From IMG/VR virus record IMGVR_UViG_3300047560_002174, positions 1-28,682 of that record: DNA of 28,682 bases; one strand, 5' to 3'. Position 1 is the first letter of the stretch. Each line of letters opens with the position of its first letter. The notes under the pieces are model-generated. The model searched no databases. It was not told the DNA's origin and saw only the letters and a program-made list of their open reading frames with translations. A program made the position numbers and the translations under genes. This document shows positions 2,634 to 21,996 of this stretch, one piece after another. This stretch comes from a virus.

Positions 2634-3381
2634 AAATGCACAGGAAAGCCACGATCATAGTAAAGAAGTATTAGAAGTTCTTTATGGTTATGATAGTTTC
2701 TTGGATAGCTTAGAGTTCATTGCTGATTTTGGCTGTGGGTATGGACTTGATACAGAGTGGTGGGCAAAACTTACTACAAGAGATGATCCACCAGAACCAA
2801 GAAACTATACTGTCTATGCAATAGATCGTGATAGTAGTAGAGTAAACAAACAAATTACCAAATTACCAAATGTGCATTTTTTTGAATCTGATTTTGATGG
2901 CGATGATCCAATAGTTCCAAGAAAAATAGATTTTTTATGGTGTCATGATGCGTTTCAATATGTTACTAACCCATTAAGAACTTTAAAAAAATGGAATGAA
3001 ATAATGAATGTAAATGGAATGTTACTTATGGTATTCCCTCAACAAATTCATTATGCATACAATAGATTGCAGACACACAGTTATAATTACACATATTACA
3101 ACCACAATATTGTTAGTTTGATGTACATGCTAGCAGTAAATGGGTTTGATTGTAGAGACGCATATTTTAAAAAAGAAGAAAATGATCCATGGTTATATGC
3201 AGCAGTGTACAAATCAGATATTGAACCAATGAATCCAAAATCTACTAGTTGGTATGATTTAGCCGAAAAAAATTTATTAAATGATAGTGTTGTTGATTGT
3301 CTAAACAGATATGGCTATGTTAAACAAGATGAACTTGTTGTTAACTGGTTGGATAAAGATTTCAGTTTTCCTAAAGAATGA
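2620..3381 (+). CDS. Class I SAM-dependent methyltransferase
   Basis: A 253-residue protein with a Rossmann-type SAM-binding signature: motif I DFGCGYGLD at residues 36-44, an acidic end of strand 2 (AIDRD), and a post-motif strand followed by LKKWNEIMNVNGMLLMVFPQ, typical of small-molecule methyltransferases. The C-terminal 90 residues are less typical. GAGG sits about 9 nt before the ATG. It overlaps the neighbours at both ends and shares ATGA with the downstream nucleotidyltransferase, suggesting the two act together, perhaps on a sugar or lipid. Substrate unknown. Confidence 0.85.
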   Translation: MVQFKNAQESHDHSKEVLEVLYGYDSFLDSLEFIADFGCGYGLDTEWWAKLTTRDDPPEPRNYTVYAIDRDSSRVNKQITKLPNVHFFESDFDGDDPIVPRKIDFLWCHDAFQYVTNPLRTLKKWNEIMNVNGMLLMVFPQQIHYAYNRLQTHSYNYTYYNHNIVSLMYMLAVNGFDCRDAYFKKEENDPWLYAAVYKSDIEPMNPKSTSWYDLAEKNLLNDSVVDCLNRYGYVKQDELVVNWLDKDFSFPKE

Positions 3382-3818
3382 AAATAGTACTAGTAACAGG
3401 TGGATTTGATCCTATACATTCGGGTCATATAGCATTACTTAATAATGCTGAACATATGGGTGATTGGTTAATAGTGGGACTCAATTCTGATGAATGGTTA
3501 ACAAGAAAAAAAGGAAGACCATTTATGCCATGGCGTGAACGAATGGTTGTGTTAGATAATTTACACATGGTAGATCGTGTAATTGAATTTGATGATAGCG
3601 ATGACAGTGCGTGTGATGCAATTAGAAAAGTCAAAGAACTATTTCCACATGATGAAATTATCTTTGCAAACGGTGGTGACCGAACAGCCAAAAACATTCC
3701 AGAAATGGTAGAACCAGATGTAGAATTTGTTTTTGGTGTTGGTGGCAACAAGACTGCTAGTAGCAGTGATTTTTTACAGCGTTGGTTAGATACCAGCAGT
3801 AAGACAGCGCAGATATAA
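3378..3818 (+). CDS. Cytidylyltransferase-like nucleotidyltransferase
   Basis: A 146-residue protein of the HIGH-type nucleotidyltransferase superfamily. GGFDPIHSGH at residues 8-17 contains the HxxH that binds the nucleotide phosphates, and an RxxR-like stretch (PWRERMVVLD) follows. The layout matches glycerol-3-phosphate cytidylyltransferases (TagD) and the C-terminal domain of HldE, so it would join an NMP or AMP moiety to a phosphorylated polyol or sugar. A second member, closer to HldE, lies at 20820-21227. Substrate cannot be fixed from sequence alone. It ends the first plus-strand gene block. Confidence 0.85.
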   Translation: MKIVLVTGGFDPIHSGHIALLNNAEHMGDWLIVGLNSDEWLTRKKGRPFMPWRERMVVLDNLHMVDRVIEFDDSDDSACDAIRKVKELFPHDEIIFANGGDRTAKNIPEMVEPDVEFVFGVGGNKTASSSDFLQRWLDTSSKTAQI

Positions 3819-5004: not shown

Positions 5005-5081
5005 GGGCCGGAAGCTTAAGTGGTATAAGCGTCCGACTCATAATCGGGTGACAGTGAGTTCAAGTCTCACCCGGCCCACCA
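5005..5081 (+). tRNA. tRNA-Ile(CAT), lysidine type
   Basis: A full cloverleaf: acceptor GGGCCGG paired to CCGGCCC, a D arm closed by GCTT/AAGC, anticodon arm TCCGA-CTCATAA-TCGGG, T arm GTGAG-TTCAAGT-CTCAC, then A73 and an encoded CCA. The anticodon is CAT, which could be Met or Ile2. Ile2 is favoured: the inner anticodon arm CGA-CTCATAA-TCG equals that of E. coli tRNA-Ile2, and the acceptor pairs 4-69 and 5-68 are C-G, the pattern favouring the lysidine synthetase TilS, whereas elongator Met tRNA has U4-A69 and A5-U68. It would read ATA, a frequent codon in this AT-rich window. Confidence 0.92.
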
Positions 5082-5288: not shown

Positions 5289-5372
5289 GCGGCTGTGGTG
5301 GAATGGTATACACAATGGACTTAAAATCCATCGGCGCAAGCCATGCGGGTTCGACTCTCGCCAGCCGCACCA
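5289..5372 (+). tRNA. tRNA-Leu(TAA)
   Basis: A class II tRNA: acceptor GCGGCTG paired to CAGCCGC, anticodon arm ATGGA-CTTAAAA-TCCAT with anticodon TAA, a long variable arm (CGGCGCAAGCCAT), T arm GCGGG-TTCGACT-CTCGC, A73 and encoded CCA. It reads TTA, a favoured leucine codon in AT-rich phage genes. Confidence 0.95.
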
Positions 5373-6416: not shown

Positions 6417-7305
6417 GTTCTTCATCAAAGTTTGCGCATGGGTTCCAACCTAAATCACGAAGTTTGGAATCATCAATACTGTATCTCACATCTTGACCAG
6501 GCCGTGTGATACTCAAATCTAAATCTCCACCACCAAAGAATTCACATATTTTATTTGCGATTATAATATTTTGTTCTTCATAATTGCCTGAAATATTATA
6601 AATTTCATTTTGTACACCTGATTCAATGATAGTAAGAATTGCACTTGCGGTATCACTAACATGCAACCATGTGCGGCGTGGTTTTCCTTGATCATGTAGT
6701 GGTATTGGTCTACCTAATTGTAAACTTTTAATGCTTTTGGGAATAAATTTTTCTGTATATTGCCCAATTCCATAATTGTTTGTTGGACGAACAATAACAT
6801 ATGGGACTTTAAAAGTTCTTGCCCAAGCAAGTACTAACTGATCTGCTGCTGCTTTTGTTGCGGAATATGGATTGCTTGGTTTAAGTAAATCTGTTTCAAC
6901 ATGTGCACCATTAATAATATCTCCATAAACTTCATCTGTGCTGAAGTGAAGTAAAGTTGGCATCTTAAAACGATGACGCTCTTTAATTAAGTTAAGCAGG
7001 TGATGCACACCATTTACATTACTACGTAAAAATACATCGGAACTAACAATACTATTATCAACATGTGTTTCGGCTGCGGTATTAATGATATAATCGCAGT
7101 CGTATAACATATCTAAATCGTTGATATCTGACTCAATAAATTTAAATTGCGAATCCTGCAATAGGTCTGGCAACCATTGAGTGTTCGCAGCATAAGTCAT
7201 TTTATCTACACCAATAACATAATGACCTTTGCGTAGTAACGCAGTGGTTACATGATACCCAATAAAACCTAAACAACCTGTGACATAAACTACTTTTGTA
7301 CTCAT
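6373..7305 (-). CDS. RmlB-like NAD-dependent sugar nucleotide dehydratase
   Basis: A 310-residue extended short-chain dehydrogenase/reductase. The NAD site is GCLGFIG at residues 10-16. The active site carries STDEVYG at 122-128, where T-D-E is the signature of 4,6-dehydratases, and YSATK (147-151) holds the catalytic Tyr and Lys. RPTNNYG and GKPRRTWLHVSD also follow RmlB. It would make a 4-keto-6-deoxy sugar nucleotide, probably from dTDP-glucose or a relative. Last gene of the six-gene minus operon; its start overlaps the transketolase stop (ATGA). Its 3' end overlaps the DUF2452-like gene by 44 nt. Confidence 0.9.
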   Translation of the reverse strand: MSTKVVYVTGCLGFIGYHVTTALLRKGHYVIGVDKMTYAANTQWLPDLLQDSQFKFIESDINDLDMLYDCDYIINTAAETHVDNSIVSSDVFLRSNVNGVHHLLNLIKERHRFKMPTLLHFSTDEVYGDIINGAHVETDLLKPSNPYSATKAAADQLVLAWARTFKVPYVIVRPTNNYGIGQYTEKFIPKSIKSLQLGRPIPLHDQGKPRRTWLHVSDTASAILTIIESGVQNEIYNISGNYEEQNIIIANKICEFFGGGDLDLSITRPGQDVRYSIDDSKLRDLGWNPCANFDEELKKIVDYYRQNFVW

Positions 7306-7784
7306 ATTTTTCTTGTTAAGTTAAGATATTCTGGTGTATTGCTGTTAATAAATCTGTCCCATATGTTTTCTAGTTCAGAAATACTGCCTGGTTTAAAACA
7401 ACCAATGTTTGGCAATGCTTTTAAAACGACTTCATCATCGTGTGCCCAATGACTAATTCCATCATGACTGTAATCTTTATCTCTGCCACTACCAATTAAT
7501 TTAACTGGAATATTTTCATGGCTGACATAATTCCGAAGCATTTCAAATGGACGGTATAGTACAAAACTACTCATTGAATAACAAACTGGTTTTAAACCTT
7601 CATTAGCCATACCAATTGCAACACCAATCATCAATTGTTCGGCTGCTCCTACATTGTAAAATCTATCTGGAAATGCATTTCGTATTTGATCAAGAATACC
7701 AAAACCCAAATCCGCAGTAATGACACGTATGGATTCATCTTCTACCATACTGTTTAACAACATCATTGCACATTCTTTTCTCAT
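7302..7784 (-). CDS. Transketolase-like subunit, C-terminal (pyrimidine-binding) half
   Basis: A 160-residue protein covering only the pyrimidine-binding domain of a thiamine diphosphate enzyme: ITADLGFGIL, FYNVGAAEQLMIGVAIGMAN (with the activating Glu in AAEQ), and HDGISHWAHDDEVVLKALPN. The third domain of full-length transketolase is missing, as in known two-gene transketolases. It overlaps the partner subunit by ATGA and would form the active site with it. Two-subunit transketolases occur in bacterial polysaccharide clusters. It would move a two-carbon unit between sugars; the substrate is unknown. Confidence 0.87.
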   Translation of the reverse strand: MRKECAMMLLNSMVEDESIRVITADLGFGILDQIRNAFPDRFYNVGAAEQLMIGVAIGMANEGLKPVCYSMSSFVLYRPFEMLRNYVSHENIPVKLIGSGRDKDYSHDGISHWAHDDEVVLKALPNIGCFKPGSISELENIWDRFINSNTPEYLNLTRKI

Positions 7785-8395
7785 CCTGTAATCTCCGCAT
7801 AATCTTCTGGTTTAAGAACATAATAGTGTGTTAGTAACTCTTTTGCAAAAGACCATTTTGGTGGATCACTGAATCGCAAATTAATACGTGGCAAAAATGC
7901 TCTTAGTCTGTGTGATAATTGATGAGTATCAATCATATCATATGCACCCATACCATTGATATTAACATAAACATGTAGATTTTTAATATTATTATCTTGT
8001 ATAAATCTCAGAGATTCCCATATAGAACCTTCAGCACATTCACCATCACTGATCATACAGTAAACATTTTTATTTGGTTTTGCTAGAGCATGTCCTACAG
8101 CAATAGGCAATCCAGAACCCAAGCTACCTGTGCTGCAATATAACTGATTCTCTAAATCTCTATTAGGATGAATACCATGTTTGTGTATCATTTCAACTGG
8201 ATCAACGTTATAATATTTTTCAAGTACTACGTATAGCGCAAGTCCAGCATGTCCATTGCTGAGAATAAACACTTCATCATCTTTTCGTTCTCTATATATT
8301 TCTTCAATAATTGGCAAGGCACTTAGAGTTGAACTAAGATGACTTAATCGTTCTTGATATGTGATATCTACTAGTCTGCGTTCAGTTGGAGTCAT
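7781..8395 (-). CDS. Transketolase-like subunit, N-terminal (diphosphate-binding) half
   Basis: A 204-residue partner of the previous gene. The start is the ATG at 8395 (MTPTERRLVDITYQ), 1 nt after the TAA of the FkbM gene and behind TTGGAAA; an upstream in-frame ATG would overlap FkbM by 83 nt. LSNGHAGLALYVVLEKY, CSTGSLGSGLPIAVGHALA and ISDGECAEGSIWES are hallmark transketolase segments; the usual GDG of the TPP motif reads SDG here. It is shorter than a normal N-terminal domain. It works with the C-terminal half as one enzyme. Confidence 0.87.
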   Translation of the reverse strand: MTPTERRLVDITYQERLSHLSSTLSALPIIEEIYRERKDDEVFILSNGHAGLALYVVLEKYYNVDPVEMIHKHGIHPNRDLENQLYCSTGSLGSGLPIAVGHALAKPNKNVYCMISDGECAEGSIWESLRFIQDNNIKNLHVYVNINGMGAYDMIDTHQLSHRLRAFLPRINLRFSDPPKWSFAKELLTHYYVLKPEDYAEITG

Positions 8396-8396
8396 A

Positions 8397-9104
8397 TTAT
8401 TTCCAAGCAAATAGTTGATCGTTGATGACTTGTTCGGTTGAATATCCCATGTTACGCATGATTGATTCAATGCGATCACGATTAGCGCCTAAGTTACCCG
8501 GCCATGGTTGCTGCTTAACATCTGTTTGATGCACTTCAATAAACCAAAACTTAACAATATCTTTGACTGGATCAAGTAATGTTTCAGTTAATACATCACT
8601 TTCAGATCCTTCTATATCACATTTAGCAAAATCTACATGTGATAAATTTCGTTCTTTGAAAAATGTTTCCATAGTAATGCCACGAACTGTTGTCGGTACC
8701 CCATGCCTATCAAGTAAACTATTTACAGTTGGGTTTTCATTCATAAAGAATATAACAGGGTCATCACTAAAACTAATTGCTGCTTCTAATCGTTCAATAT
8801 TTGGAATATCTTTAGTTAACTTAGTTAACATTTTAAATGTTTGTGGTGCTGGCTCAACAGAGTATAACTTTTCAGCAGAATCATGAGCATATAAGCTAAA
8901 CAAACCAATATTGGCACCAAAATCCACAATAGTCATATTAGAACGACCAGCAAAAATTGGTGCATACATTTTATCTTCATTAATTTGATTTAAAATAATA
9001 TCACAACAATTTTCTCCATACTCAAACCATGTAGCTACTTCAGGATCGTCACTACGTATCCAATGCTCATTACCTTGACTTGTTTTAATTAATCTTTCAA
9101 TCAT
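8397..9104 (-). CDS. FkbM family methyltransferase
   Basis: A 235-residue SAM-dependent O-methyltransferase. VDFGANIGLF at residues 60-69 is motif I, YSVEPAPQTF follows, and KCDIEGSE is the FkbM hallmark after the short VDFA strand. FkbM enzymes methylate hydroxyls on sugars and polyketides, and many phage and bacterial surface-glycan clusters carry one. It overlaps the upstream epimerase by 8 nt and sits 1 nt before the transketolase N-half, so it is part of the coupled operon. Confidence 0.92.
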   Translation of the reverse strand: MIERLIKTSQGNEHWIRSDDPEVATWFEYGENCCDIILNQINEDKMYAPIFAGRSNMTIVDFGANIGLFSLYAHDSAEKLYSVEPAPQTFKMLTKLTKDIPNIERLEAAISFSDDPVIFFMNENPTVNSLLDRHGVPTTVRGITMETFFKERNLSHVDFAKCDIEGSESDVLTETLLDPVKDIVKFWFIEVHQTDVKQQPWPGNLGANRDRIESIMRNMGYSTEQVINDQLFAWK

Positions 9105-12287: not shown

Positions 12288-13648
12288 AAAAAGTTTTATT
12301 GAAATACAATAATATCACACATCTTGATCCAGATTACCAACATCGTGTAATGGACTTGGGTGATTTTTATCAACAACTTCCATTTGATACTGATTTTAAA
12401 GTTTATCATGTTGTTGATTTAGATAATGCATTAATGGAATTAGATCCGTTAACTGATTGGGTAGTAGTTGTTGCAGCGGGACATTGTACTCAAGATAGAA
12501 ATTTATATGATAAACTTATCATAGAAGCGTTAAAACAAAATAGTCCATTGATTGGGCATATTCTTAATTTTAAAGATCAGTACCCACATATTCATCCACA
12601 AATATTTGCATTTGATTATCAACGTTGGGTATCGGCAGGATGGACTTCATGGGAATATTCTGGTGAATCAGAAACATTTATCTCTCAAGGAATTTCCGCA
12701 AGTGAAGAAACGTTTCACGATGAATATACTCCACACTGGATTGAAAGTTCTGGACATGCACGAGAATATTCAGTAAAAGAAATGCAAGTGGGTGCACAGG
12801 TAATACGAGACTTTACTGAAATGGGATGGCGAATTGTTAATATTCCTGAACATATTCGTAAAAACAAATTTCACCTATATCCAGATCAACAATGGCAAGC
12901 ATTTGATGAATTTCTACATGGGGGTGAATATGTTGGAACTGTGTACGAGCAAAAAAATTATGCCGAATTAATTGGACATTTAGACAATCAAGTAAAGAGA
13001 CAATATTATGTACTAAACACAGAACCATTACAACGTCCAGTTGTGAGTGATAAACTTGAACATTATATAGGAGTTTCTGCTGGCTTGAAACTAGTAGGAA
13101 CAATGATTAAAAATGGTTTTGATGAACGTACTGCAATAACACATTTTGATTTTAGCCCACATGCATTAGAATTTCAGCGATTCATTCACGATCATTGGGA
13201 TGGTGACATCAACGCCTATGAAAAAATTTGCAATGATTTTAAATTTCTATTAACCACTGCATATCCATGTGAGCCACGTGGTGGATATATGGAAAATTTA
13301 GAATATCTATTAAATCAAATTGGCTGCACCCCCAATGAATTTAAAGATCATTGGAAAAAATATTCTGATATAAAGGTTGGATATAGAGAAGTAAATTTAT
13401 ATGATCGTGTTGATCAATTTAAACTTGCAAAAATGTGTAGTCTATTCAATACAAATTATTTGTGGATTAGTAATGCATTTTGGATGGAATATAGTTTAAT
13501 TAAGCATGGCAAACAAGAACTAAAAGATTTACGTGACAATTTGATGTTAGAATTAAAAGATGCCAACTCTATTATTATTCTAGACGTTGAGGATACTTGG
13601 CATCAAGGATTGATAACCATCAATAATCAGATTGTTGAATATTGTTGA
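12284..13648 (+). CDS. 454-residue two-part protein, possibly glycosyltransferase-like plus methyltransferase-like
   Basis: The N-terminal part (about 1-200) has alternating strands and helices with DWVVVVAAGHCTQDRNLYDK and SPLIGHILNFKDQYPHIHPQ, a pattern I associate with uncharacterised phage proteins near glycosyltransferases. The second part (about 250-450) has YIGVSAGLKLVGTMIKNGF then THFDFSPHALEFQRFIHDHW, spaced like motif I and the acidic strand-2 end of a Rossmann methyltransferase, though the glycine motif is degenerate. Neither activity is certain. Its last 69 nt overlap the oppositely oriented oxygenase gene. Confidence 0.8.
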   Translation: MKKVLLKYNNITHLDPDYQHRVMDLGDFYQQLPFDTDFKVYHVVDLDNALMELDPLTDWVVVVAAGHCTQDRNLYDKLIIEALKQNSPLIGHILNFKDQYPHIHPQIFAFDYQRWVSAGWTSWEYSGESETFISQGISASEETFHDEYTPHWIESSGHAREYSVKEMQVGAQVIRDFTEMGWRIVNIPEHIRKNKFHLYPDQQWQAFDEFLHGGEYVGTVYEQKNYAELIGHLDNQVKRQYYVLNTEPLQRPVVSDKLEHYIGVSAGLKLVGTMIKNGFDERTAITHFDFSPHALEFQRFIHDHWDGDINAYEKICNDFKFLLTTAYPCEPRGGYMENLEYLLNQIGCTPNEFKDHWKKYSDIKVGYREVNLYDRVDQFKLAKMCSLFNTNYLWISNAFWMEYSLIKHGKQELKDLRDNLMLELKDANSIIILDVEDTWHQGLITINNQIVEYC

Positions 13649-14239
13649 TTTGGTAGTGCTATATCCATGGATAATAATGTGGTATCTATATTCGTTGCTA
13701 TTGTTATAAACACTGTGAGTGTATCCATTGGCAATCATGAATATACTTCCTTCGTTATTGAACGGTAACACTCCAAATTTTTCGTATAGGAATTCACACC
13801 CAATTGGGTTGTTTAGGCTAATATTCACTGCACGTAATCCCATATCATTGCTATCACTATGAGGCTTAATATATCCATATGGTGACAATCTCATAAATCG
13901 CACACGATGATATACATCATATGGAAATTGTTCTTTTAGAAATTTAATAGTAATTGGACAATGATCTTTTATTTCAGTCCATGTATAGGGGACGGTATCA
14001 TTTGTAAAGTGTGCGTACTCTGGATATACACCAAAATGATCTGTGTGTTGGCTTGATATGCCATGTATTGATAAACTAGCCCACCCCTCACTGGTATTAT
14101 CTCTGTGAGCAACGTATAAATCATCAAGTGCACGTGCTTCTTCAAGCATTTCGCTATATGGAACGTTATCTAAATGTAATTCTACGTAAGGAACTTTAGA
14201 TTGGTTTATTATCCAATCTGCAGAAATTGATTTTACCAT
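13580..14239 (-). CDS. Fe(II)/2-oxoglutarate oxygenase, aspartyl beta-hydroxylase-like
   Basis: A 219-residue protein with a double-stranded beta-helix core: iron ligands H127 and D129 (KPHSDSND) and H175 (NGYTHSVYN), and R185 ten residues later for the 2-oxoglutarate carboxylate. The flanking pattern VRFMRLSPYGYIKPHSD and FMIANGYTHSVYN recalls the aspartyl/asparaginyl hydroxylase group. It could hydroxylate a sugar, a lipid or a protein residue. No ribosome site before the ATG. Its C-terminal 22 residues are encoded antisense to the end of the 454-residue gene. Confidence 0.85.
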   Translation of the reverse strand: MVKSISADWIINQSKVPYVELHLDNVPYSEMLEEARALDDLYVAHRDNTSEGWASLSIHGISSQHTDHFGVYPEYAHFTNDTVPYTWTEIKDHCPITIKFLKEQFPYDVYHRVRFMRLSPYGYIKPHSDSNDMGLRAVNISLNNPIGCEFLYEKFGVLPFNNEGSIFMIANGYTHSVYNNSNEYRYHIIIHGYSTTKSTIFNNLIIDGYQSLMPSILNV

Positions 14240-14292: not shown

Positions 14293-14317
14293 AGGTTTCA
14301 ATAATTTGAGAGTTCAA

Positions 14318-15352
14318 ATGTCAAAAACAGTTCTAATTACTGGCGGTGCTGGATTCATCGCCCACCACGTCATTGATAAAATATTAAAAGATACAGATTG
14401 GAATATCGTTAGTCTAGATAGATTAGATATTTCTGGAAATTTAAATCGTTTACACGATGTATTAAAAGAGCATGATTTCCAAGAGGTGGCACGACGAATG
14501 AGAGTCATTTTTCATGATCTCAAAGCAGAAATCAATAGTCAAATTGTACATGATATTGGACATGTAGATATTATATTACATCTTGCTGCTGGTAGTCATG
14601 TAGATCGTTCAATCACTTATCCTATGGAGTTTGTACAGGACAACGTTGTTGGTACTGTCAATATGCTAGATTATGCTAGGAAAAACCATCCATCTCTGGA
14701 AAAATTTGTATACTTCTCAACCGATGAAATCTTCGGTGTCGCTCCACCTGGAGTCAGTTATAAAGAATATGATAGGTATAATAGTACCAACCCCTATTCT
14801 GCTAGTAAAGCAGCAGCCGAAGAGTTTTGTGTTGCATATGAAAACACTTACAAGATGCCTATCATCGTTACTCATACGATGAATGTGTTTGGTGAACGCC
14901 AACATCCAGAAAAATTTATTCCAGCAACTATACAAAAGGTGAGAGATGGAGAAACGGTCGTTATTCACAGTGACCCAACAAGGACAGTTGCAGGGTCTAG
15001 AATGTACATTCACGCTAGGGATGTTGCGGAAGGTCTTATGTTCATTCTTGGACTTGAAGACTATAAACATAGGGGTGATTACGGCAATGCCCATTGCCCA
15101 AAATTCAATTTGGTTGGCACTGAAGAAATTGATAACCTTACGCTAGCACAGTTGATTGCTGCTGCTGTTGGTAAACCACTTAATTATGAAATGGTTGATT
15201 TTCACAGTTCACGTCCTGGACATGACATGCGTTATGCATTGGACGGTGGATTACTTAAAGAACTTGGGTGGGAACCTAGAATTAAATTAAGTGAACGAAT
15301 TAAACAAGTTGTTGATTGGACACTTACAAATGAAAGGTGGCTTCGTAAATGA
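14318..15352 (+). CDS. RmlB-like NAD-dependent sugar nucleotide dehydratase
   Basis: A 344-residue SDR enzyme. The start is the ATG at 14318 with GAGAG upstream; an in-frame TTG at 14306 is the alternative. GGAGFIA (9-15) binds NAD; STDEIFG (134-140) carries the T-D-E of 4,6-dehydratases; YSASK (160-164) has the catalytic Tyr and Lys. A TRTVAGSRMYIHARDVAEG segment replaces the usual G-x-x-R-D/T-W-x-H-V-D. It is full length and is the second dehydratase of this type in the window. First gene of the late-promoter operon; ATGA joins it to the next gene. Confidence 0.9.
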   Translation: MSKTVLITGGAGFIAHHVIDKILKDTDWNIVSLDRLDISGNLNRLHDVLKEHDFQEVARRMRVIFHDLKAEINSQIVHDIGHVDIILHLAAGSHVDRSITYPMEFVQDNVVGTVNMLDYARKNHPSLEKFVYFSTDEIFGVAPPGVSYKEYDRYNSTNPYSASKAAAEEFCVAYENTYKMPIIVTHTMNVFGERQHPEKFIPATIQKVRDGETVVIHSDPTRTVAGSRMYIHARDVAEGLMFILGLEDYKHRGDYGNAHCPKFNLVGTEEIDNLTLAQLIAAAVGKPLNYEMVDFHSSRPGHDMRYALDGGLLKELGWEPRIKLSERIKQVVDWTLTNERWLRK

Positions 15353-16068
15353 GCCGAATGATTAAACATTGTTTTGTAGTCACGTCAGCAGTTAATAGTA
15401 AGTTTGGAGTTTACTCTCCAGCAGCACGTTTACAACAAACTATCGCAACTCTAAAAAATATTCGTGAACGTGTACCAATGTGCAAAATTATTGTGATGGA
15501 ATGCGCTGGCACTCCATTAACAGATGCACAAAGTGCGCTTATAGAAGAAAATTGTGATTTGCTTTTAGATTTTAGTAAAGACCCAGATGTTATTGAAATC
15601 TACAAAAGTGATAATTGGGATGTAGTGAAGAATAGCACAGAGATTATGTGCTTTGGTCGTGCTCTACGTATGTGTCAAGATGATGGTGATTTCGCAGACA
15701 TGGATAGAATTCACAAAATGTCTGGTCGCTATATTCTTAACGATGAGTTTGATCTTGGTGTATATGAAGAACATCCTGATCGTATTATTATTGGACCAAA
15801 AAACCAAAGTCAATTTCCATTTGAAGTAACTGGTATTGAATTGCAATATATGGCACGTCTATGGTCTTGGCCAGCCAATCAAACAGAAACTGTTATCAAA
15901 GTATACGAAGAAAGTTTAAATTATATTGGTGAACGTGTTGCTCGTGGTGGTTACGCAGATATTGAACACGTACTATACAAATTTTTACCATCAGAGTTAG
16001 TTACTGAAATTCCCGTTCTTGGTGTAGAAGGAACGATTGCACCAAATGGTGTCGCTATAAGGAACTAA
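15349..16068 (+). CDS. Glycosyltransferase-like protein of phage glycan clusters
   Basis: A 239-residue protein. An N-terminal alpha/beta region (HCFVVTSAVNSKFGVYSPAA, then VPMCKIIVMECAG) is followed by DMDRIHKMSGRYILNDEFDL near 117-136; K-x-SGRY-x-L is a recurrent motif in glycosyltransferase-like proteins near sugar gene clusters. There is no clear DxD beyond DMD. Overlaps its upstream neighbour by ATGA. Activity is an inference from motif and context. Confidence 0.75.
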   Translation: MSRMIKHCFVVTSAVNSKFGVYSPAARLQQTIATLKNIRERVPMCKIIVMECAGTPLTDAQSALIEENCDLLLDFSKDPDVIEIYKSDNWDVVKNSTEIMCFGRALRMCQDDGDFADMDRIHKMSGRYILNDEFDLGVYEEHPDRIIIGPKNQSQFPFEVTGIELQYMARLWSWPANQTETVIKVYEESLNYIGERVARGGYADIEHVLYKFLPSELVTEIPVLGVEGTIAPNGVAIRN

Positions 16069-16069
16069 T

Positions 16070-17287
16070 ATGAAAAACTGCAAAGAACTTAAAGAATGTG
16101 TTGCGTGTGGTAGTGATGATTTAGAGATTACATTAGATTTGGGTGACCAGCCACTGGCAAACAATTATCTTGAGAACCCAAATAATCAAGAAGAGGCATA
16201 TCCATTGGCAGTAAATCGTTGTAAAAAGTGTAATCATTTACAATTAACACATGTTGTTGATCCCGAAATAATTTACAAAAATTACTCATATGTGAGTGGC
16301 ACAAGTCAAACATATCTTGAATATATGGATTGGTTTGCACGTTGGTGTAGAGAATACTCGGATTGTTATTACGGACATGTATTAGACATTGGTTGTAATG
16401 ATGGTAGTCAATTGGATGCATTTGCGCAAATTGGTTTTAATACACATGGCGTAGACCCTGCTGAAAATTTATATAAAACAAGTTCTAAAAAAGGACATAA
16501 AGTTGTTTGTGGATTTTGGGACAAACATTCAATAAAAGAATTAAAACAAAACGAATTTGATATCGTAGTTTCGCAAAATGCATTTGCACATATTCCCGAT
16601 CCATTAAAATATTTGCACTTACTTGAACCGTTAATGAAAGATGGGGGATTATTTTTTATTCAAACAAGTCAAGCAAATATGGTATTGAATGGGGAGTTTG
16701 ATACCATCTACCACGAACATATTAGTTTTTATTGCATCCAATCTATGCGTGAACTGGCTAGACGTGCTGGTTGGAATTTAATTGATGCGATTAAAACTCC
16801 TATTCATGGAACTAGTTATGTGTTTGTATTAAGTCCCAATTTCAAACAGCCCAAGCACATTAAAAATTTAATTGCTATGGAATCAAAATTACAAGACTCC
16901 AAAACATATGAAAATTGGGCGTTAGAAGTTGAGACAATTAAAGATAATCTAATTCAAACTTGTGAAGAATATAAAAAGTTGGGATACAGATTAATTGGTT
17001 ATGGTGCTGCAGCCAAAGGTATGACACTACTTAATTACACACACATACCATTAGAATGTATCATTGACGATAATCCATTAAAGCAAGGAAAATACGCACC
17101 CGGTAGCAAGATACCAATTGTTAGTTCTGAGTTTCTTACCACACAGTTGGGACAAAAGGATAACGTATTGTTTGTTCCTTTAGCTTGGAACTTCTTTAAA
17201 GAAATTAGAAAAAAAATTAGAGATCGCAGACTTTCTTTTGATGATAGATTCCTTTGTTATTTCCCAGAGGTGTCTGTTGAATCTTGA
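16070..17287 (+). CDS. Sugar C-methyltransferase (zinc-binding N-terminus, NovU/TylC3 type)
   Basis: A 405-residue three-part enzyme. The N-terminal zinc site uses C10, C13, C51 and C54; the SAM domain has VLDIGCNDGSQL at 105-116; the C-terminal domain includes GYGAAAKGMTLLNY and ECIIDDNPLKQGKYAPGSKI. This architecture is that of methyltransferases that add a methyl to C3 or C5 of 4-keto-6-deoxy sugar nucleotides, the product type of RmlB-like dehydratases, two of which lie in this window. AAGGA precedes the ATG. The ending YFPEVSVES overlaps the next gene by 11 nt. Confidence 0.93.
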   Translation: MKNCKELKECVACGSDDLEITLDLGDQPLANNYLENPNNQEEAYPLAVNRCKKCNHLQLTHVVDPEIIYKNYSYVSGTSQTYLEYMDWFARWCREYSDCYYGHVLDIGCNDGSQLDAFAQIGFNTHGVDPAENLYKTSSKKGHKVVCGFWDKHSIKELKQNEFDIVVSQNAFAHIPDPLKYLHLLEPLMKDGGLFFIQTSQANMVLNGEFDTIYHEHISFYCIQSMRELARRAGWNLIDAIKTPIHGTSYVFVLSPNFKQPKHIKNLIAMESKLQDSKTYENWALEVETIKDNLIQTCEEYKKLGYRLIGYGAAAKGMTLLNYTHIPLECIIDDNPLKQGKYAPGSKIPIVSSEFLTTQLGQKDNVLFVPLAWNFFKEIRKKIRDRRLSFDDRFLCYFPEVSVES

Positions 17288-18164
17288 AAAACCAACACAA
17301 ATATTAGTTCGTCGTAGAGCAGCGCTTGGTGATGTTATAATGAGCACTGGTATTGTTCGTGAATTAAAACATCGTTACCATTGTAATATAGATATCGCCA
17401 CGGAGTTTCCTAATGTGTACGACCATAACCCACATGTTCGTGCAATATATCACACAGAAGCAATGCCCGACGCTTCAAATTATGATTTGTACATTAATTT
17501 AGACGATGCTTATGAACATAATCCACTTAACCATTATTTGGATAGTTACTTCTATCGTGCATTTGGATCAACTCCAGTAATTAATAAAAATCCTGAACTT
17601 TTTCCAACTGAGTTAGATGAAGATTTCATGAACTCATTTTACCAAGATAATGAATTAGACAAATACATTGTCGTTCATATTCGTCAGTGGTTTTGGGAAT
17701 TGAAAAATATGTCATGGGACACGTGGTATGAAATATTTGAAAAATTATTTACTGAACGTGCAGATTTTAAAATAGTTTGTGTTGGCACAGCACAAGATGG
17801 TTTTGTTGATCATCCATTATTTGTTGACGCAAGAGATAAACTATCAGTTCAACAACAAAAACTATTAATGGATCGGGCTGATTGCTTTGTTGGGATTGAT
17901 TCTGGTCCGTATCATATTGCAGCAACTGCAACAACCAACATTGTTTCATTGCATACGCATTTGCTACCAGAAAGAATCATACCACAAAATAAATTGGTAA
18001 CACCCATATTATCAAAAATAGATTGTGTTGGCTGCAATGACAATCAAAGTAGACCAATTAGACAAGTTATTTGTAAACATGGAGATTATCGTTGTAGCAA
18101 CATGTTTGATTCTGATGAAATTGCCCAAGCAATTTTAGGATATCTTGGTAACAATGAATTGTGA
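17277..18164 (+). CDS. GT9 (heptosyltransferase-like) glycosyltransferase
   Basis: A 295-residue GT-B protein. The start is placed at TTG 17277 because AGAGG lies exactly 6 nt upstream; an ATG at 17238 has no ribosome site and overlaps the previous gene by 50 nt. RRAALGDVIMSTGIVREL (about 12-29) is the GT9 N-terminal signature (R-x2-x-LGD-x2); VGIDSGPYHIAA (205-216) is the D-S-G-x-x-H nucleotide-sugar site of heptosyltransferases WaaC/WaaF. With HldE/HldD-like genes in the same operon, ADP-heptose is a plausible donor. Confidence 0.88.
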   Translation: MNLEKPTQILVRRRAALGDVIMSTGIVRELKHRYHCNIDIATEFPNVYDHNPHVRAIYHTEAMPDASNYDLYINLDDAYEHNPLNHYLDSYFYRAFGSTPVINKNPELFPTELDEDFMNSFYQDNELDKYIVVHIRQWFWELKNMSWDTWYEIFEKLFTERADFKIVCVGTAQDGFVDHPLFVDARDKLSVQQQKLLMDRADCFVGIDSGPYHIAATATTNIVSLHTHLLPERIIPQNKLVTPILSKIDCVGCNDNQSRPIRQVICKHGDYRCSNMFDSDEIAQAILGYLGNNEL

Positions 18165-18375
18165 TAATTGCCATAAATGTCTTGAAGGATTGACTATTGA
18201 TGTCGGTATTGGTAAAATACTAGTTACATCTACAAGAATGATTTTGTGTCCTGTTTGTGGCAATAAAAGATGCCCCAAAGCAACAGATCATGAATTATTA
18301 TGTACTAACAGTAATGACACAGAACAATTTGGAAGTATATATTCAAATATTAATTTTAAAACATTGGAAGAATGA
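18154..18375 (+). CDS. Conserved small zinc-ribbon phage protein
   Basis: A 73-residue protein from ATG 18154, overlapping the GT9 stop by 11 nt (a TTG at 18145 is in frame). Cysteine pairs are MNCDNCHKC at the start and CPVCGNKRCPKATDHELLC in the middle, followed by TNSND. The NKRCPxAxDHxxxCTxSN pattern is one I recall from many unrelated phages, always as a short protein of unknown function. It is odd in the middle of a glycan operon. Probably zinc binding. Confidence 0.82.
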   Translation: MNCDNCHKCLEGLTIDVGIGKILVTSTRMILCPVCGNKRCPKATDHELLCTNSNDTEQFGSIYSNINFKTLEE

Positions 18376-19127
18376 CAACATATAAACATTCAGGCACTGC
18401 TGGAGATTTAATTTATAGCCTAGACATAGTTAAAAAAATGGGTGCTGGCACATTTGCGATTGCACTTGGTAATATTGAAAATTGCGTGTCTAAATATGGT
18501 TATCGTCCAGAAGATGTTGCGCCAGAACACAAAGGTAGATTTACAAATAAAGATTTTCAATTACTAGCACCATTGTTAAAACGTCAAAGTTATATTATTG
18601 ATGTTAAACCATGGGATAAAAATGAAGTTACTATTGATTTAGATCATTTTCGTAGTTATATCTATCGCAAGTTTGAAGGTAATATTATTGAAGCGTATCA
18701 TGGTGCGTTTAATTTGCCTTTCACTAAAGAGAACTATAGTGATATTTGGTTAGAGGCTGACCCAAAACGTGAAGCATCTGTTGTGGTAAACAGAACCAAC
18801 AGATATCTTGATCCAAGTAGCGAACCAGTATGGATGCAAATGTGTGAAGATGCTGATTTAGAAAATAATGGAATTTTTGTAGGAACACCAGATGAACATA
18901 GTGCTTTTGTTTCTTGGACTAACTGTAAAATACCTTATCGCAGTGTACATGATTTCAAAGAACTTGCAGACTTAATTGCTGGTGCTGATTTATTTTTGGG
19001 AAATCAAAGTATGGCGTATAGTATAGCAACTGGTTTAGGTAAAGAAACAATGTTAGAGATTCACAAAATAAAACCATTACAATACAGTGAATGTTATTTT
19101 CCACGTGAGGGAGCCAGTTATTTCTGA
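18372..19127 (+). CDS. GT-B/heptosyltransferase-like glycosyltransferase, degenerate
   Basis: A 251-residue protein. HSGTAGDLIYSLDIVKKMG (6-24) resembles the glycine-rich start of GT9 proteins (x-x-GD-x-x-x-x-L). LIAGADLFLGNQSMAYSIAT near 208-227 resembles their nucleotide-sugar site, with N-Q-S replacing D-S-G. It probably has a GT-B-like fold; activity is unproven. ATGA overlap with the zinc-ribbon gene. I recall similar proteins in phage glycan clusters. Confidence 0.75.
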   Translation: MTTYKHSGTAGDLIYSLDIVKKMGAGTFAIALGNIENCVSKYGYRPEDVAPEHKGRFTNKDFQLLAPLLKRQSYIIDVKPWDKNEVTIDLDHFRSYIYRKFEGNIIEAYHGAFNLPFTKENYSDIWLEADPKREASVVVNRTNRYLDPSSEPVWMQMCEDADLENNGIFVGTPDEHSAFVSWTNCKIPYRSVHDFKELADLIAGADLFLGNQSMAYSIATGLGKETMLEIHKIKPLQYSECYFPREGASYF

Positions 19128-19131
19128 GAAA

Positions 19132-19872
19132 TTGAAAATACTTCTTGTTGGAGACAATGGAGTAGATCAATACCAATATGGAACTGTTAGTCGCATCAGT
19201 CCAGAAGCGCCAGTTCCTGTTATTAACTATACTCATACTACTACTAAACCAGGCATGGCTGCTAATGTTCGGGACAATTTAGAAAAATTAGGATGCGATG
19301 TAAAATTTGTGCATGGTGTAAAAACCTGTATTAAAACAAGAATAATTGACAGTAAAAGTAAACAGCATTTAGTACGAATTGATCAAGATTTATTATCAAG
19401 ACCAGTTACAATAGATTCTTCCACTCTTTACCAATACGATGCTATTGTTATCAGTGACTACAATAAAGGATCAGTGGAGTATGAAACTGTAGAAAACATT
19501 AGGAAGAATTATTCTGGTCCTATTTTTGTTGACACCAAGAAAACAGATTTAATTCGCTTTGAAGGTTGCTACGTTAAGATCAATGAAAAAGAATATAACG
19601 ATGCAAAAACATTTCCCACAGAACTTATTGTTACTTTGGGACGTAACGGTGTAAGATATAAAGAACATGAAATAAGTACGCCCCAAGTAGAAGCATTTGA
19701 TGTGTGTGGGGCTGGAGATACATTTCTTTCTGCATTAGCATATGAGTATGTAATTACAAAAGATATTTTAAAGGCAATTAATTTTGCAACAAGAGCAGCA
19801 AGCGTAACAATACAGCATGTTGGTGTGTATAGCCCAACAGTTTTGGAGATTAATCGTGAGTACAAGGCTTGA
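19132..19872 (+). CDS. hldE (kinase domain): HldE-type heptose-7-phosphate kinase (PfkB family)
   Basis: A roughly 246-residue carbohydrate kinase matching the N-terminal domain of HldE/RfaE. ILLVGDNGVDQYQYG, SRISPEAPVPVI, PGMAANV (usual PGGAANV), VISDYNKGS, and the catalytic DVCGAGDTFLSALAYEY (base D in GAGD) appear in order. It is about 60 residues shorter than the bacterial domain. The expected product is heptose 1,7-bisphosphate. Start uncertain: TTG 19132 gives MKILLVGD at the usual place; a GAGGGAG at 19107-19113 lies 6 nt before an in-frame ATT at 19120; GTG at 19105 and 19087 are also in frame. It overlaps the cupin gene by 17 nt. Confidence 0.87.
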   Translation: MKILLVGDNGVDQYQYGTVSRISPEAPVPVINYTHTTTKPGMAANVRDNLEKLGCDVKFVHGVKTCIKTRIIDSKSKQHLVRIDQDLLSRPVTIDSSTLYQYDAIVISDYNKGSVEYETVENIRKNYSGPIFVDTKKTDLIRFEGCYVKINEKEYNDAKTFPTELIVTLGRNGVRYKEHEISTPQVEAFDVCGAGDTFLSALAYEYVITKDILKAINFATRAASVTIQHVGVYSPTVLEINREYKA

Positions 19873-20218
19873 AGGTAAAGTAAAAAAAGGATGGGGACAC
19901 GAAGATATATGGTGTACCAACGATAAGTACTGCGGAAAATTTATGCACTTCAATGAAGGAGCAAAATTTAGTATGCACTTTCATGCTGAAAAAGATGAGA
20001 CATGGTACATTACCAAGGGAAAGTTTATTGTTAAGTGGATTGATACACGAACTGCAGCACAACATGAAAAAGAATTAGTTGTTGGCGATGTGTGGCATAA
20101 TCCACCACTTTTGCCACATCAATTAATTTGTATAGAAGAAGGCACTGTTCTTGAAGTATCAACACCAGATAGTGTAGAAGATAATTATCGTGTGTTGCCT
20201 GGAGATAATCAGCAATGA
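19856..20218 (+). CDS. Cupin protein, sugar-isomerase-like
   Basis: A 120-residue single-domain cupin. The start is GTG 19856, 7 nt after TTGGAG and overlapping the kinase gene. Metal ligands H41, H43 and E48 (MHFHAEKDETWY, spacing HxHx4E) and H88 (PPLLPHQL) fit the two cupin motifs. It resembles the C-terminal domain of type II mannose-6-phosphate isomerase/GDP-mannose pyrophosphorylase and small sugar isomerases. Wedged between the two HldE halves, it may act on a sugar phosphate of the same route. ATGA overlap with the next gene. Confidence 0.85.
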   Translation: MSTRLEGKVKKGWGHEDIWCTNDKYCGKFMHFNEGAKFSMHFHAEKDETWYITKGKFIVKWIDTRTAAQHEKELVVGDVWHNPPLLPHQLICIEEGTVLEVSTPDSVEDNYRVLPGDNQQ

Positions 20219-20823
20219 CCAATTTTCATGAATTAGATTTTTTTGAAAATCCATTTAAATCTACTTTTGTTTATCCAGACCCAAAAGATAAACTAGAACT
20301 TGGTGTCACTTATAAACCAGATGACACTCCATATGTTTGGTTTTATAAAGGCAAAGAACTTTTAGATGTATTAAATCCAGAAATTATTACATGGGCTAAA
20401 GAAAACAAGTTAGATTTTGAAGCATTGTATATTTTTTTAATGACTCCAAAGTATGAAATTTTAGTTCACACTGATGGATTTTTTCTAGATTGGAATCCAG
20501 TAGTTATAAATTGGGTTGTTGGAGATGAACCAAATTCATATATGTCATGGCATGGGCCAATAGATAATAAAACCACTCTTGCTGATTGTGTTGATTTGTC
20601 GTGTGAAGATAGAAGTTTGTATTATCTTAGAATGGACGCAAATAAATTAAAAGAAATAGAACGACATACTATCACTGGACCAACATTAGTAAGAGTGAAT
20701 CAGCCACATCGTGGTGTGAATGAAAGTGATAAAAACAATTGGTTTATTAGTTTAAGATTTATCAACAAAATTGGTAACTGGGATAAAGTTACTGAGAAAT
20801 TCAAACCCTATATTAAAAAATGA
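20215..20823 (+). CDS. Putative Fe(II)/2-oxoglutarate-type oxygenase
   Basis: A 202-residue protein with a likely double-stranded beta-helix. H85 and D87 (LVHTDG), H165 (NQPHRGVNE) and R181 (FISLRF, 16 residues on) are placed like the iron and 2-oxoglutarate ligands of the aspartyl hydroxylase-like group, and the preceding strand YIFLMTPKYEI is in the right position. Less certain than the oxygenase at 13580-14239. Coupled by ATGA on both sides, it may hydroxylate a sugar or lipid intermediate. Confidence 0.72.
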   Translation: MTNFHELDFFENPFKSTFVYPDPKDKLELGVTYKPDDTPYVWFYKGKELLDVLNPEIITWAKENKLDFEALYIFLMTPKYEILVHTDGFFLDWNPVVINWVVGDEPNSYMSWHGPIDNKTTLADCVDLSCEDRSLYYLRMDANKLKEIERHTITGPTLVRVNQPHRGVNESDKNNWFISLRFINKIGNWDKVTEKFKPYIKK

Positions 20824-21227
20824 ATAAACGAAGAGTTATAGTTAATGGAACTTTTGATATATTGCATCGTGGGCATATTGAAATGCTTAACTATGCAAGA
20901 AGTTTAGGAGATTATCTTTTGGTTTGTATTGATTCTGATACAAGGGTCAAAGAATTAAAAGGTGATGATAGACCCATAAATCGTCAAGAAGATCGCAAGT
21001 ATCATTTAGATAATATTAAAGCAATTGATGCAGTGTGGTTATTTGATTCTGCAGAAGAGTTAGAACATATTTGTAAACTTTATAGACCCCATGTTATGGT
21101 CAAAGGCAGCGATTATCGTGGTAAACCAATTGTTGGTGCTAAGTATTGCGATAGTATTGTGTTTTATGATTTAGTAAGTGGATATTCAACGAGTAAAATA
21201 ATTGAAAATATTAATAACAGGAAATAA
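20820..21227 (+). CDS. hldE (nucleotidyltransferase domain): HldE-type nucleotidyltransferase
   Basis: A 135-residue stand-alone version of the HldE/RfaE C-terminal domain. GTFDILHRGHIEMLNYARSL (10-29) holds the HxxH; then KGDDRPINRQEDRKYHLD, MVKGSDYRGKPIVGA and the terminal GYSTSKII, which match the family almost segment by segment. In bacteria this domain transfers AMP to heptose 1-phosphate, giving ADP-heptose. The kinase half lies two genes upstream. Its last 26 nt overlap hldD. Confidence 0.9.
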   Translation: MNKRRVIVNGTFDILHRGHIEMLNYARSLGDYLLVCIDSDTRVKELKGDDRPINRQEDRKYHLDNIKAIDAVWLFDSAEELEHICKLYRPHVMVKGSDYRGKPIVGAKYCDSIVFYDLVSGYSTSKIIENINNRK

Positions 21228-21996
21228 AGGCTTCATTGGTAGCCGATTTGAAACATTTCTTCGTGAGGTTGGCGAAGATATAGTTACATATGAATGGGAT
21301 GAAAATCAACGACCAACGGTTGAGGGACTTGATTGGGTAATACATCTTGGTGCTATTAGCGCCACAACTGAACGTGATGTTGCAAAAGTCATGAAGCAAA
21401 ATTATGACTTTTCGGTGTGGTTATACGAGGAATGTAGAAAATATGATGTTGATATGCAGTGGGCTAGCAGTGCTAGTGTATATGGTAGTGGTGTTGGATT
21501 TAAAGAGTCTGATCCTGTTGATCCACGTAGTCCATACTCTTGGTCAAAATACTTCTTTGAACATTACGTAGAAAAACATCCATCACATCGTAGATGTCAG
21601 GGATTTAGATATTTTAATGTATATGGTCCAGAAGGTGAAGAACACAAAGGTTCACAGGCAAGCCCATTCTGCCAATTCAAACAACAAGCAGAAACTACTG
21701 GAATTATAAAAGTGTTTGAAGGTAGTGATAAAATGCGTCGTGATTTTGTCAAAGTTGATCACGTTATTAATGTTCAAATGCAATTTATCAATGCTAATAT
21801 TAATGAAAGTGGTATTTGGAATATTGGTATGGGAACAACAATGAGTTTTATGGATGTTGCCAGAAAATACGCTAATCAATATGGTGCTCTGATTCATGAA
21901 ATTCCAATGCCAGAGAATCTTAAATCAAGTTACCAGTATTATACCTGTGCAGATTTAACGAAGTTGAAAGAAACTCTAAGCACATATGTTTTTTAA
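21202..21996 (+). CDS. hldD: HldD-like ADP-heptose 6-epimerase, short C-terminus
   Basis: A 264-residue SDR enzyme. TTG 21202 gives MKILITGNKGFIG, the expected start, inside the previous gene. HLGAISATTE, SSASVYGSG, VDPRSPYSWSK (Y112, K116), FRYFNVYGPEG, HKGSQASP and MRRDFVKVDHV match HldD throughout, including HKGSxAS, a strong HldD marker. It converts ADP-D,D-heptose to ADP-L,D-heptose. E. coli HldD is about 310 residues; here the protein stops right after TCADLTKLK, so the last 25-30 residues are missing. The 129 nt that follow hold nothing I recognise. Confidence 0.9.
   Translation: MKILITGNKGFIGSRFETFLREVGEDIVTYEWDENQRPTVEGLDWVIHLGAISATTERDVAKVMKQNYDFSVWLYEECRKYDVDMQWASSASVYGSGVGFKESDPVDPRSPYSWSKYFFEHYVEKHPSHRRCQGFRYFNVYGPEGEEHKGSQASPFCQFKQQAETTGIIKVFEGSDKMRRDFVKVDHVINVQMQFINANINESGIWNIGMGTTMSFMDVARKYANQYGALIHEIPMPENLKSSYQYYTCADLTKLKETLSTYVF

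Follow-up and report, generated by a model that had tools for sequence, protein, structure and literature searches.

A run of five genes in a viral genome fragment very likely equips a phage to make ADP-heptose, and a small cupin among them may supply the isomerase with which the pathway begins. The genes lie at positions 19,132 to 21,996 of the IMG/VR record IMGVR_UViG_3300047560_002174, which was analysed over its whole length of 28,682 nucleotides and is referred to here as the window. Best family matches place three of the products with the heptose enzymes HldA (kinase), HldC (nucleotidyltransferase) and HldD (epimerase), in agreement with the original prediction of a phage ADP-heptose module, which had been made from the sequence alone. 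That prediction passed over the cupin, which is now the likely source of the GmhA step. The reading towards which the evidence tilts, by a small measure, is that the cupin isomerises sedoheptulose-7-phosphate in place of GmhA.

Kinase, nucleotidyltransferase and epimerase

The five open reading frames (ORFs) are consecutive on the plus strand, at 19132-19872 (or 19087-19872), 19856-20218 (or 19817-20218), 20215-20823, 20820-21227 and 21202-21996. As originally described, they run in the order kinase, cupin, oxygenase, nucleotidyltransferase and HldD, with an overlap at every internal junction. The outer junction has no overlap: the most likely kinase start, TTG at 19132, lies 4 bases past the upstream stop, with GTG at 19087 as an alternative. 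The likely start of the cupin is GTG at 19856, and a longer form could begin at ATG 19817. The cassette was compared across 40 IMG/VR relatives of the kinase (loci here carry labels such as L017), and kinase, cupin and nucleotidyltransferase are kept together in nearly all of those with enough flanking sequence.

The kinase (19132-19872, PfkB family) matches TIGR02198 (rfaE_dom_I) best, at 7.9e-43, as against 1.7e-13 for ribokinase; it also matches PF00294 (6.4e-16) and phrog_8133 (1.4e-85), a family of the same short form with 246 positions. A profile search places HldA 4e84 (5e-31) ahead of ribokinases, and the AlphaFold model (predicted local distance difference test, pLDDT, 93) has Burkholderia HldA 4e8y as its best PDB match (2.3e-21), followed by a ribokinase (4.6e-15). 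Profile scores and fold match together rule out a ribokinase. The catalytic GAGD motif (G193-A194-G195-D196) is invariant. The protein was thought to be about 60 residues short, and it is indeed some 56 residues below the length of Burkholderia HldA; in the profile alignment two main blocks are missing, the first following the N-terminal segment and the second later in the protein, ahead of GAGD. Cyanophages have the same short form.

The HldC-like heptose-1-phosphate nucleotidyltransferase (20820-21227) has TIGR02199 (rfaE_dom_II) as its best profile, at 6.7e-36 compared with 2e-16 for TagD-type glycerol-3-phosphate cytidylyltransferase. With phmmer, 5x9q ranks best (2.5e-18) and TagD 1coz scores 1.3e-14, so that profile and phmmer both put HldC ahead and TagD is ruled out. 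The HldD-like ADP-heptose 6-epimerase (21202-21996), whose N-terminal part is shorter, belongs by best family match to TIGR02197 (8.4e-62). Its top PDB match is 1eq2 (2.1e-37), and the SSA, YxxxK and E-x-H-K-G-S segments are retained; we take the lysine of YxxxK to be catalytic.

The division of HldE into separate genes, which had been put forward as remarkable, is ordinary. Separate HldA and HldC are usual in many bacteria, including Burkholderia and Neisseria (PMC7993394), which have kinase, adenylyltransferase and HldD as the window does and include the top structural match (4e8y/4e84); beyond the length of the kinase, the window cassette differs from theirs in lacking SIS-type GmhA and in possessing the cupin. 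T4-like cyanophages (P-SSM2, S-SM2, S-SSM7, S-CAM1, S-CAM3 and P-TIM68) carry the same separate compact genes for nucleotidyltransferase, kinase, cupin and epimerase, with proteins about 35-50% identical to those of the window, a different gene order, an additional small HAD gene and, often, carbamoyltransferases. The four genes had already been noted in 2010, as T4-GC 304, 305, 307 and 308, for their joint occurrence in P-SSM2, S-SM2 and S-SSM7 and a possible functional link (PMC3037559); that study left undecided whether the cyanophage 'LPS genes' work, and its main text does not mention heptose.

The remaining member of the run (20215-20823) is a possible Fe(II)/2-oxoglutarate-type oxygenase, recognised by eye only from an H-x-D...H pattern; the ORF has no match in Pfam, NCBIfam, PHROGs or PDB sequences. 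It had been counted as part of the module, and is better regarded as optional: tblastn finds it in two of the 40 relatives (L017, 33%; L040, 48%), for which reason a core role was rejected. BLASTP detected no homology between it and the oxygenase that follows the cupin in S-SSM7.

Active-site residues and gene context of the cupin

The proposed sedoheptulose-7-phosphate isomerase (19856-20218, plus strand) matches PF07883 (2e-7), PF01050 (0.00025) and phrog_7851 (8e-39). Numbered from base 19865, residues K25, H38, H40, K43, E45, H85, E97 and D106 are invariant across 43 aligned phage copies. The HxH...E...H metal site of cupin isomerases is present as H38, H40, E45 and H85. The active site of the Thermofilum lyxose isomerase (TsLI) comprises K62, H75, H77, K86, E88, H143, E156 and D163, and mutating the equivalents of K86, E156 and D163 abolishes lyxose isomerase activity (PMC8378251). 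The lysine pair and glutamate of TsLI (K62, K86, E156) align with the invariant K25, K43 and E97, and the step from first lysine to first histidine is 13 residues in both. The cupin therefore carries isomerase-type active-site residues.

The cupin profile aligns with D-lyxose isomerase 2y0o along most of its length and with L-ribose isomerases in the metal motif. L-ribose isomerase has the pattern C-x-K-x12-H-x-H-x2-K-x-E exactly as the cupin family does. The pattern is found in 99 of 105 cupin ORFs, while not even its part K-x12-H-x-H-x2-K-x-E occurs in any of 1,725 other nearby ORFs; in five of the six cupin exceptions the spacer is longer by one residue. In comparison with the D-lyxose and L-ribose isomerases (2y0o, 7nzo, 5avp), the lyxose enzyme sharing the later His and Glu as well, the cupin is shorter (about 117 amino acids), is some 20-23% identical and has partners that handle sugar phosphates, not free sugars. 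Lyxose and mannose have the same arrangement at carbon 2 as D-glycero-D-manno-heptose, and this arrangement is required of the isomerase step. RefSeq and PHROGs label the cupin 'cysteine dioxygenase' (L043:9044-9400; phrog_7851), a name at odds with residues that point to a ketose-aldose isomerase. A full-text literature search returned no report of such a cupin isomerase.

The gene neighbourhoods point in the same direction. Unbiased clustering of the ORFs around the cupin gave HldC (71 loci), HAD (70) and HldA (68) as its top partners, with HldD (37) also among the commonest. A heptose kinase lies within 6 kb in 44 of 50 viral cupin loci (dereplicated at 80% identity, at least 4 kb on both flanks), and the cupin is found with the kinase/nucleotidyltransferase pair in many different gene orders. 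It is present in every one of the 31 cyanophage and marine-virus records that have the compact kinase. Four additional records (two of Bellamy, SynMITS9220M01 and AG-345-E15) have it beside an HddA-type kinase and HddC-type transferase; in Bellamy and SynMITS9220M01 it stands between a GHMP kinase (HddA best, 7e-83 and 3e-85) and a transferase whose best matches include HddC. HddA and HddC belong to the GDP-heptose branch, and heptose-7-phosphate is the intermediate common to this and the ADP branch. In the cupin tree, which is built on a short protein and has many weak forks, GDP-linked copies have at least two separate origins within the ADP-linked ones. Since the cupin is kept through these swaps of ADP and GDP enzymes, it should act before the branch point. 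A scan of genome contigs with the window cupin alone as query gave no matches.

The distribution of GmhA is complementary. No SIS-type GmhA (PF13580) was found in the window or 20 relatives, and no GmhB-type HAD (TIGR01656) in the 20 relatives, which include a sequence of 355 kb; TIGR00441 (GmhA) was likewise not found in the records of L017 and L028. Of 12 phage and marine-virus records that carry the cassette or cupin, most of them complete genomes, 11 are without it; the exception, SynMITS9220M01, carries a second kinase cluster. GmhA is present in none of the 87 cupin-anchored kinase loci with full flanks. GmhA-anchored viral loci (L182-L261), for their part, mostly show the order HddA-GmhA-HAD-HldC with no cupin (63 of 80); in most of the 11 that contain the cupin, HldA or HldC lies beside it. 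Among GmhA-anchored kinase loci, 43 have GmhA without the cupin, and the 8 with both have cupin-type and GmhA-type cassette genes side by side. Viral cassettes hold either the cupin or SIS-type GmhA, and sampled loci with both hold the genes of two cassettes. The HddA-GmhA-HAD-HldC arrangement, also seen in the second cluster of SynMITS9220M01, is a second viral heptose cassette type, common in IMG/VR. It too combines kinase, phosphatase and nucleotidyltransferase, with a GHMP-type kinase and SIS-type GmhA where the window type has a PfkB-type kinase and cupin.

Several cyanophage genes are labelled 'phosphoheptose isomerase' (L043:8719-9063, L049:8713-9036, L044:13975-14286 and 15616-15945). 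They were rejected as GmhA: the products are HAD-type, with D-x-D-x-T, T-x-R, K and D motifs, and match the capsule phosphatase family TIGR01689 best. This small HAD protein, whose gene adjoins the cupin in cyanophages, is likely a GmhB-type phosphatase, and the label likely a database error. The gene was not found in the window or its relatives in the sequence as recovered, so a host phosphatase probably performs the GmhB step in this lineage. The absence of GmhA and GmhB genes had been noted at the outset, with the suggestion that the host may supply both steps. The absence holds; as the cupin is the likely source of the 'missing' GmhA step, perhaps only the GmhB step need come from the host.

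Alternative roles and counter-evidence

A number of findings weigh against the cupin as a heptose isomerase, and the chief of these is that related cupins occur without heptose genes. They stand alone in L064, L074 and L075, adjoin GroEL in L113 and lie beside GDP-mannose dehydratase-like genes in L130, L142 and L147 (the neighbours in the last four loci were named by eye). Given such isolated or GDP-mannose-type settings, part of the family may have fructose-6-phosphate or another compound as its substrate. A strong GmhA is also encoded elsewhere in two bacterial genomes that contain the cassette (those of L078 and L081), and the phage loci sampled are the top-scoring ones by similarity, not random ones. 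At the level of residues, the column of TsLI D163 is a valine in the window cupin; the invariant D106 lies two residues on and may stand for it, displaced. The E-values against isomerases are modest (6e-6). The window cupin is not listed by PF07385 (D-lyxose isomerase), and cyanophage copies score 13.9-18.7 bits against a cut-off of 20.8, so the protein is described as isomerase-like rather than as a filed member. Its structural model is confident (pLDDT 94), but quercetinase, CapF and oxalate decarboxylase score equal to isomerases; fold search does not discriminate cupin functions, and the reading therefore rests on residues and gene context. The cassette enzymes also fall below the curated NCBIfam cut-offs, the kinase with 146.8 bits against the equivalog cut-off of 345 (TIGR02198), the nucleotidyltransferase with 123.3 against 181.5 (TIGR02199) and the epimerase with 209.1 against 274.6 (TIGR02197). 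They are therefore called HldA-like, HldC-like and HldD-like, not formal members.

The most serious alternative, though an unlikely one, is that the cassette performs late steps only (kinase, nucleotidyltransferase and epimerase) on intermediates from host GmhA and GmhB, while the cupin, for example, modifies the finished sugar or binds metal without catalysis. A host could provide both enzymes, neither of which is found in the window lineage, and the occurrence of cupins outside heptose clusters is in keeping with this. It would leave unexplained both the mutual exclusion of cupin and GmhA cassettes and the conservation of the isomerase lysines. Moreover, cyanobacterial lipopolysaccharide (LPS) is reported to lack heptose (PMC4515613), so the hosts of cyanophages may not supply the intermediate; a search for GmhA in one Prochlorococcus single-cell genome gave no match. 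Considerably less probable is a mannose-6-phosphate isomerase, which would convert fructose-6-phosphate to mannose-6-phosphate for GDP-mannose or GDP-fucose sugars, its tie to heptose reflecting shared glycan clusters. The weak match to PF01050 (MannoseP_isomer) and the GDP-mannose dehydratase-like neighbours favour it, as does the type II enzyme known from cyanophage S-SCSM1 (PMC9602691), also a cupin ketose-aldose isomerase of sugar phosphates. Yet the cupin's link with heptose kinases is far tighter than that with GDP-mannose genes, none of which was identified in the window, and the glutamine of the mannose-6-phosphate isomerase motif S-x-Q-x-H (PMC9602691) is an invariant histidine in the cupin family (S-x-H-x-H). 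S-SCSM1 is not among the cupin matches.

It is less probable still that kinase and transferase use another sugar and that the product is not ADP-heptose. The scores under the NCBIfam cut-offs and the shortened kinase would fit such a role, but kinase, nucleotidyltransferase and epimerase each independently prefer heptose families, and the HldD-like protein keeps the E-x-H-K-G-S segment of 1eq2.

Genomic setting and proposed pathway

The window record is a 28.7 kb viral fragment. Its RecA is closest, at 65-69% identity, to those of jumbo phages of 350-490 kb such as Phosso, Atu_ph07, CBB and GAP32, so the window probably comes from a large myophage; the carrier is labelled here a freshwater-type giant phage. 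The five ORFs form the end of a glycan cluster some 16 kb long. Also in the cluster are two dTDP-glucose-dehydratase-like genes, another epimerase-like gene, genes for GT34, GT17 and GT9 transferases, one gene resembling sugar C-methyltransferases and two transketolase halves. One of the dehydratase-like proteins (14306-15352) is 66% identical to its S-SM2 counterpart, above the identity of the cassette proteins, which suggests a separate exchange between these phages. An aspartyl/asparaginyl beta-hydroxylase-like gene (13580-14239, minus strand; PF05118, 1.4e-10) also lies within the cluster. Elsewhere in the window, a second nucleotidyltransferase (3378-3818; top match rfaE_dom_II, 3.5e-22) follows a methyltransferase gene at a distance from the cassette, and there are genes for tRNA-Met (5005-5081) and tRNA-Leu (5289-5372).

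GT9-like genes had been proposed upstream of the kinase. One is clear: the heptosyltransferase-like GT9 gene at 17238-18164 (plus strand) matches PF01075 (4e-9), with heptosyltransferase III as its top NCBIfam match (4.9e-10), and its product is the likely user of the sugar, for which transfer by GT9 is plausible. The other (18372-19127, plus strand) is a possible GT9-like gene, not confirmed; its position upstream of the kinase is conserved in relatives, and its product has no Pfam, NCBIfam or PHROG match. The split transketolase (7302-8479) lies on the minus strand, where it adjoins dTDP-glucose-dehydratase-like and FkbM methyltransferase genes, and consists of a pyrimidine-binding domain (7302-7784) and a ThDP-binding domain (7781-8479). 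The halves match PF02779 (2.6e-20) and PF00456 (1.2e-5), with transketolase as the top NCBIfam match. A transketolase-like gene immediately precedes the kinase in P-TIM68, and is found two genes before it in S-SM2.

The catalytic activities of the cassette, above all the substrate of the cupin, and the destination of the sugar are predicted from sequence. The cupin, in GmhA's place, would convert sedoheptulose-7-phosphate, possibly supplied by the transketolase halves, to D-glycero-D-manno-heptose-7-phosphate, and the compact HldA-like kinase would convert this to the 1,7-bisphosphate. A phosphatase would then yield the 1-phosphate, presumably the small phage HAD in cyanophages and probably a host enzyme in the window lineage. 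The HldC-like enzyme would add AMP, and the HldD-like epimerase would produce ADP-L,D-heptose for the GT9 transferase. Repair of the host core is an unlikely use of the sugar in cyanophages, because cyanobacterial LPS is reported to be without heptose (PMC4515613). Several cyanophage cassettes are located between tail-fibre or neck genes, a position that, speculatively, fits virion decoration or a new surface glycan.

The chances are about even that a family of phage cupins constitutes a new sedoheptulose-7-phosphate isomerase, not homologous to SIS-type GmhA, which it has replaced in common heptose cassettes of aquatic phages. Such phages would then have a nearly complete route to ADP- or GDP-heptose, even where the host is reported to be without heptose. 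Were the cupin the missing isomerase, the phage-encoded part of the pathway would start at the sedoheptulose-7-phosphate branch. This would correct two database labels, 'cysteine dioxygenase' for the cupin and 'phosphoheptose isomerase' for the small HAD protein, and would explain how ADP-heptose can be synthesised without GmhA in many aquatic phages.

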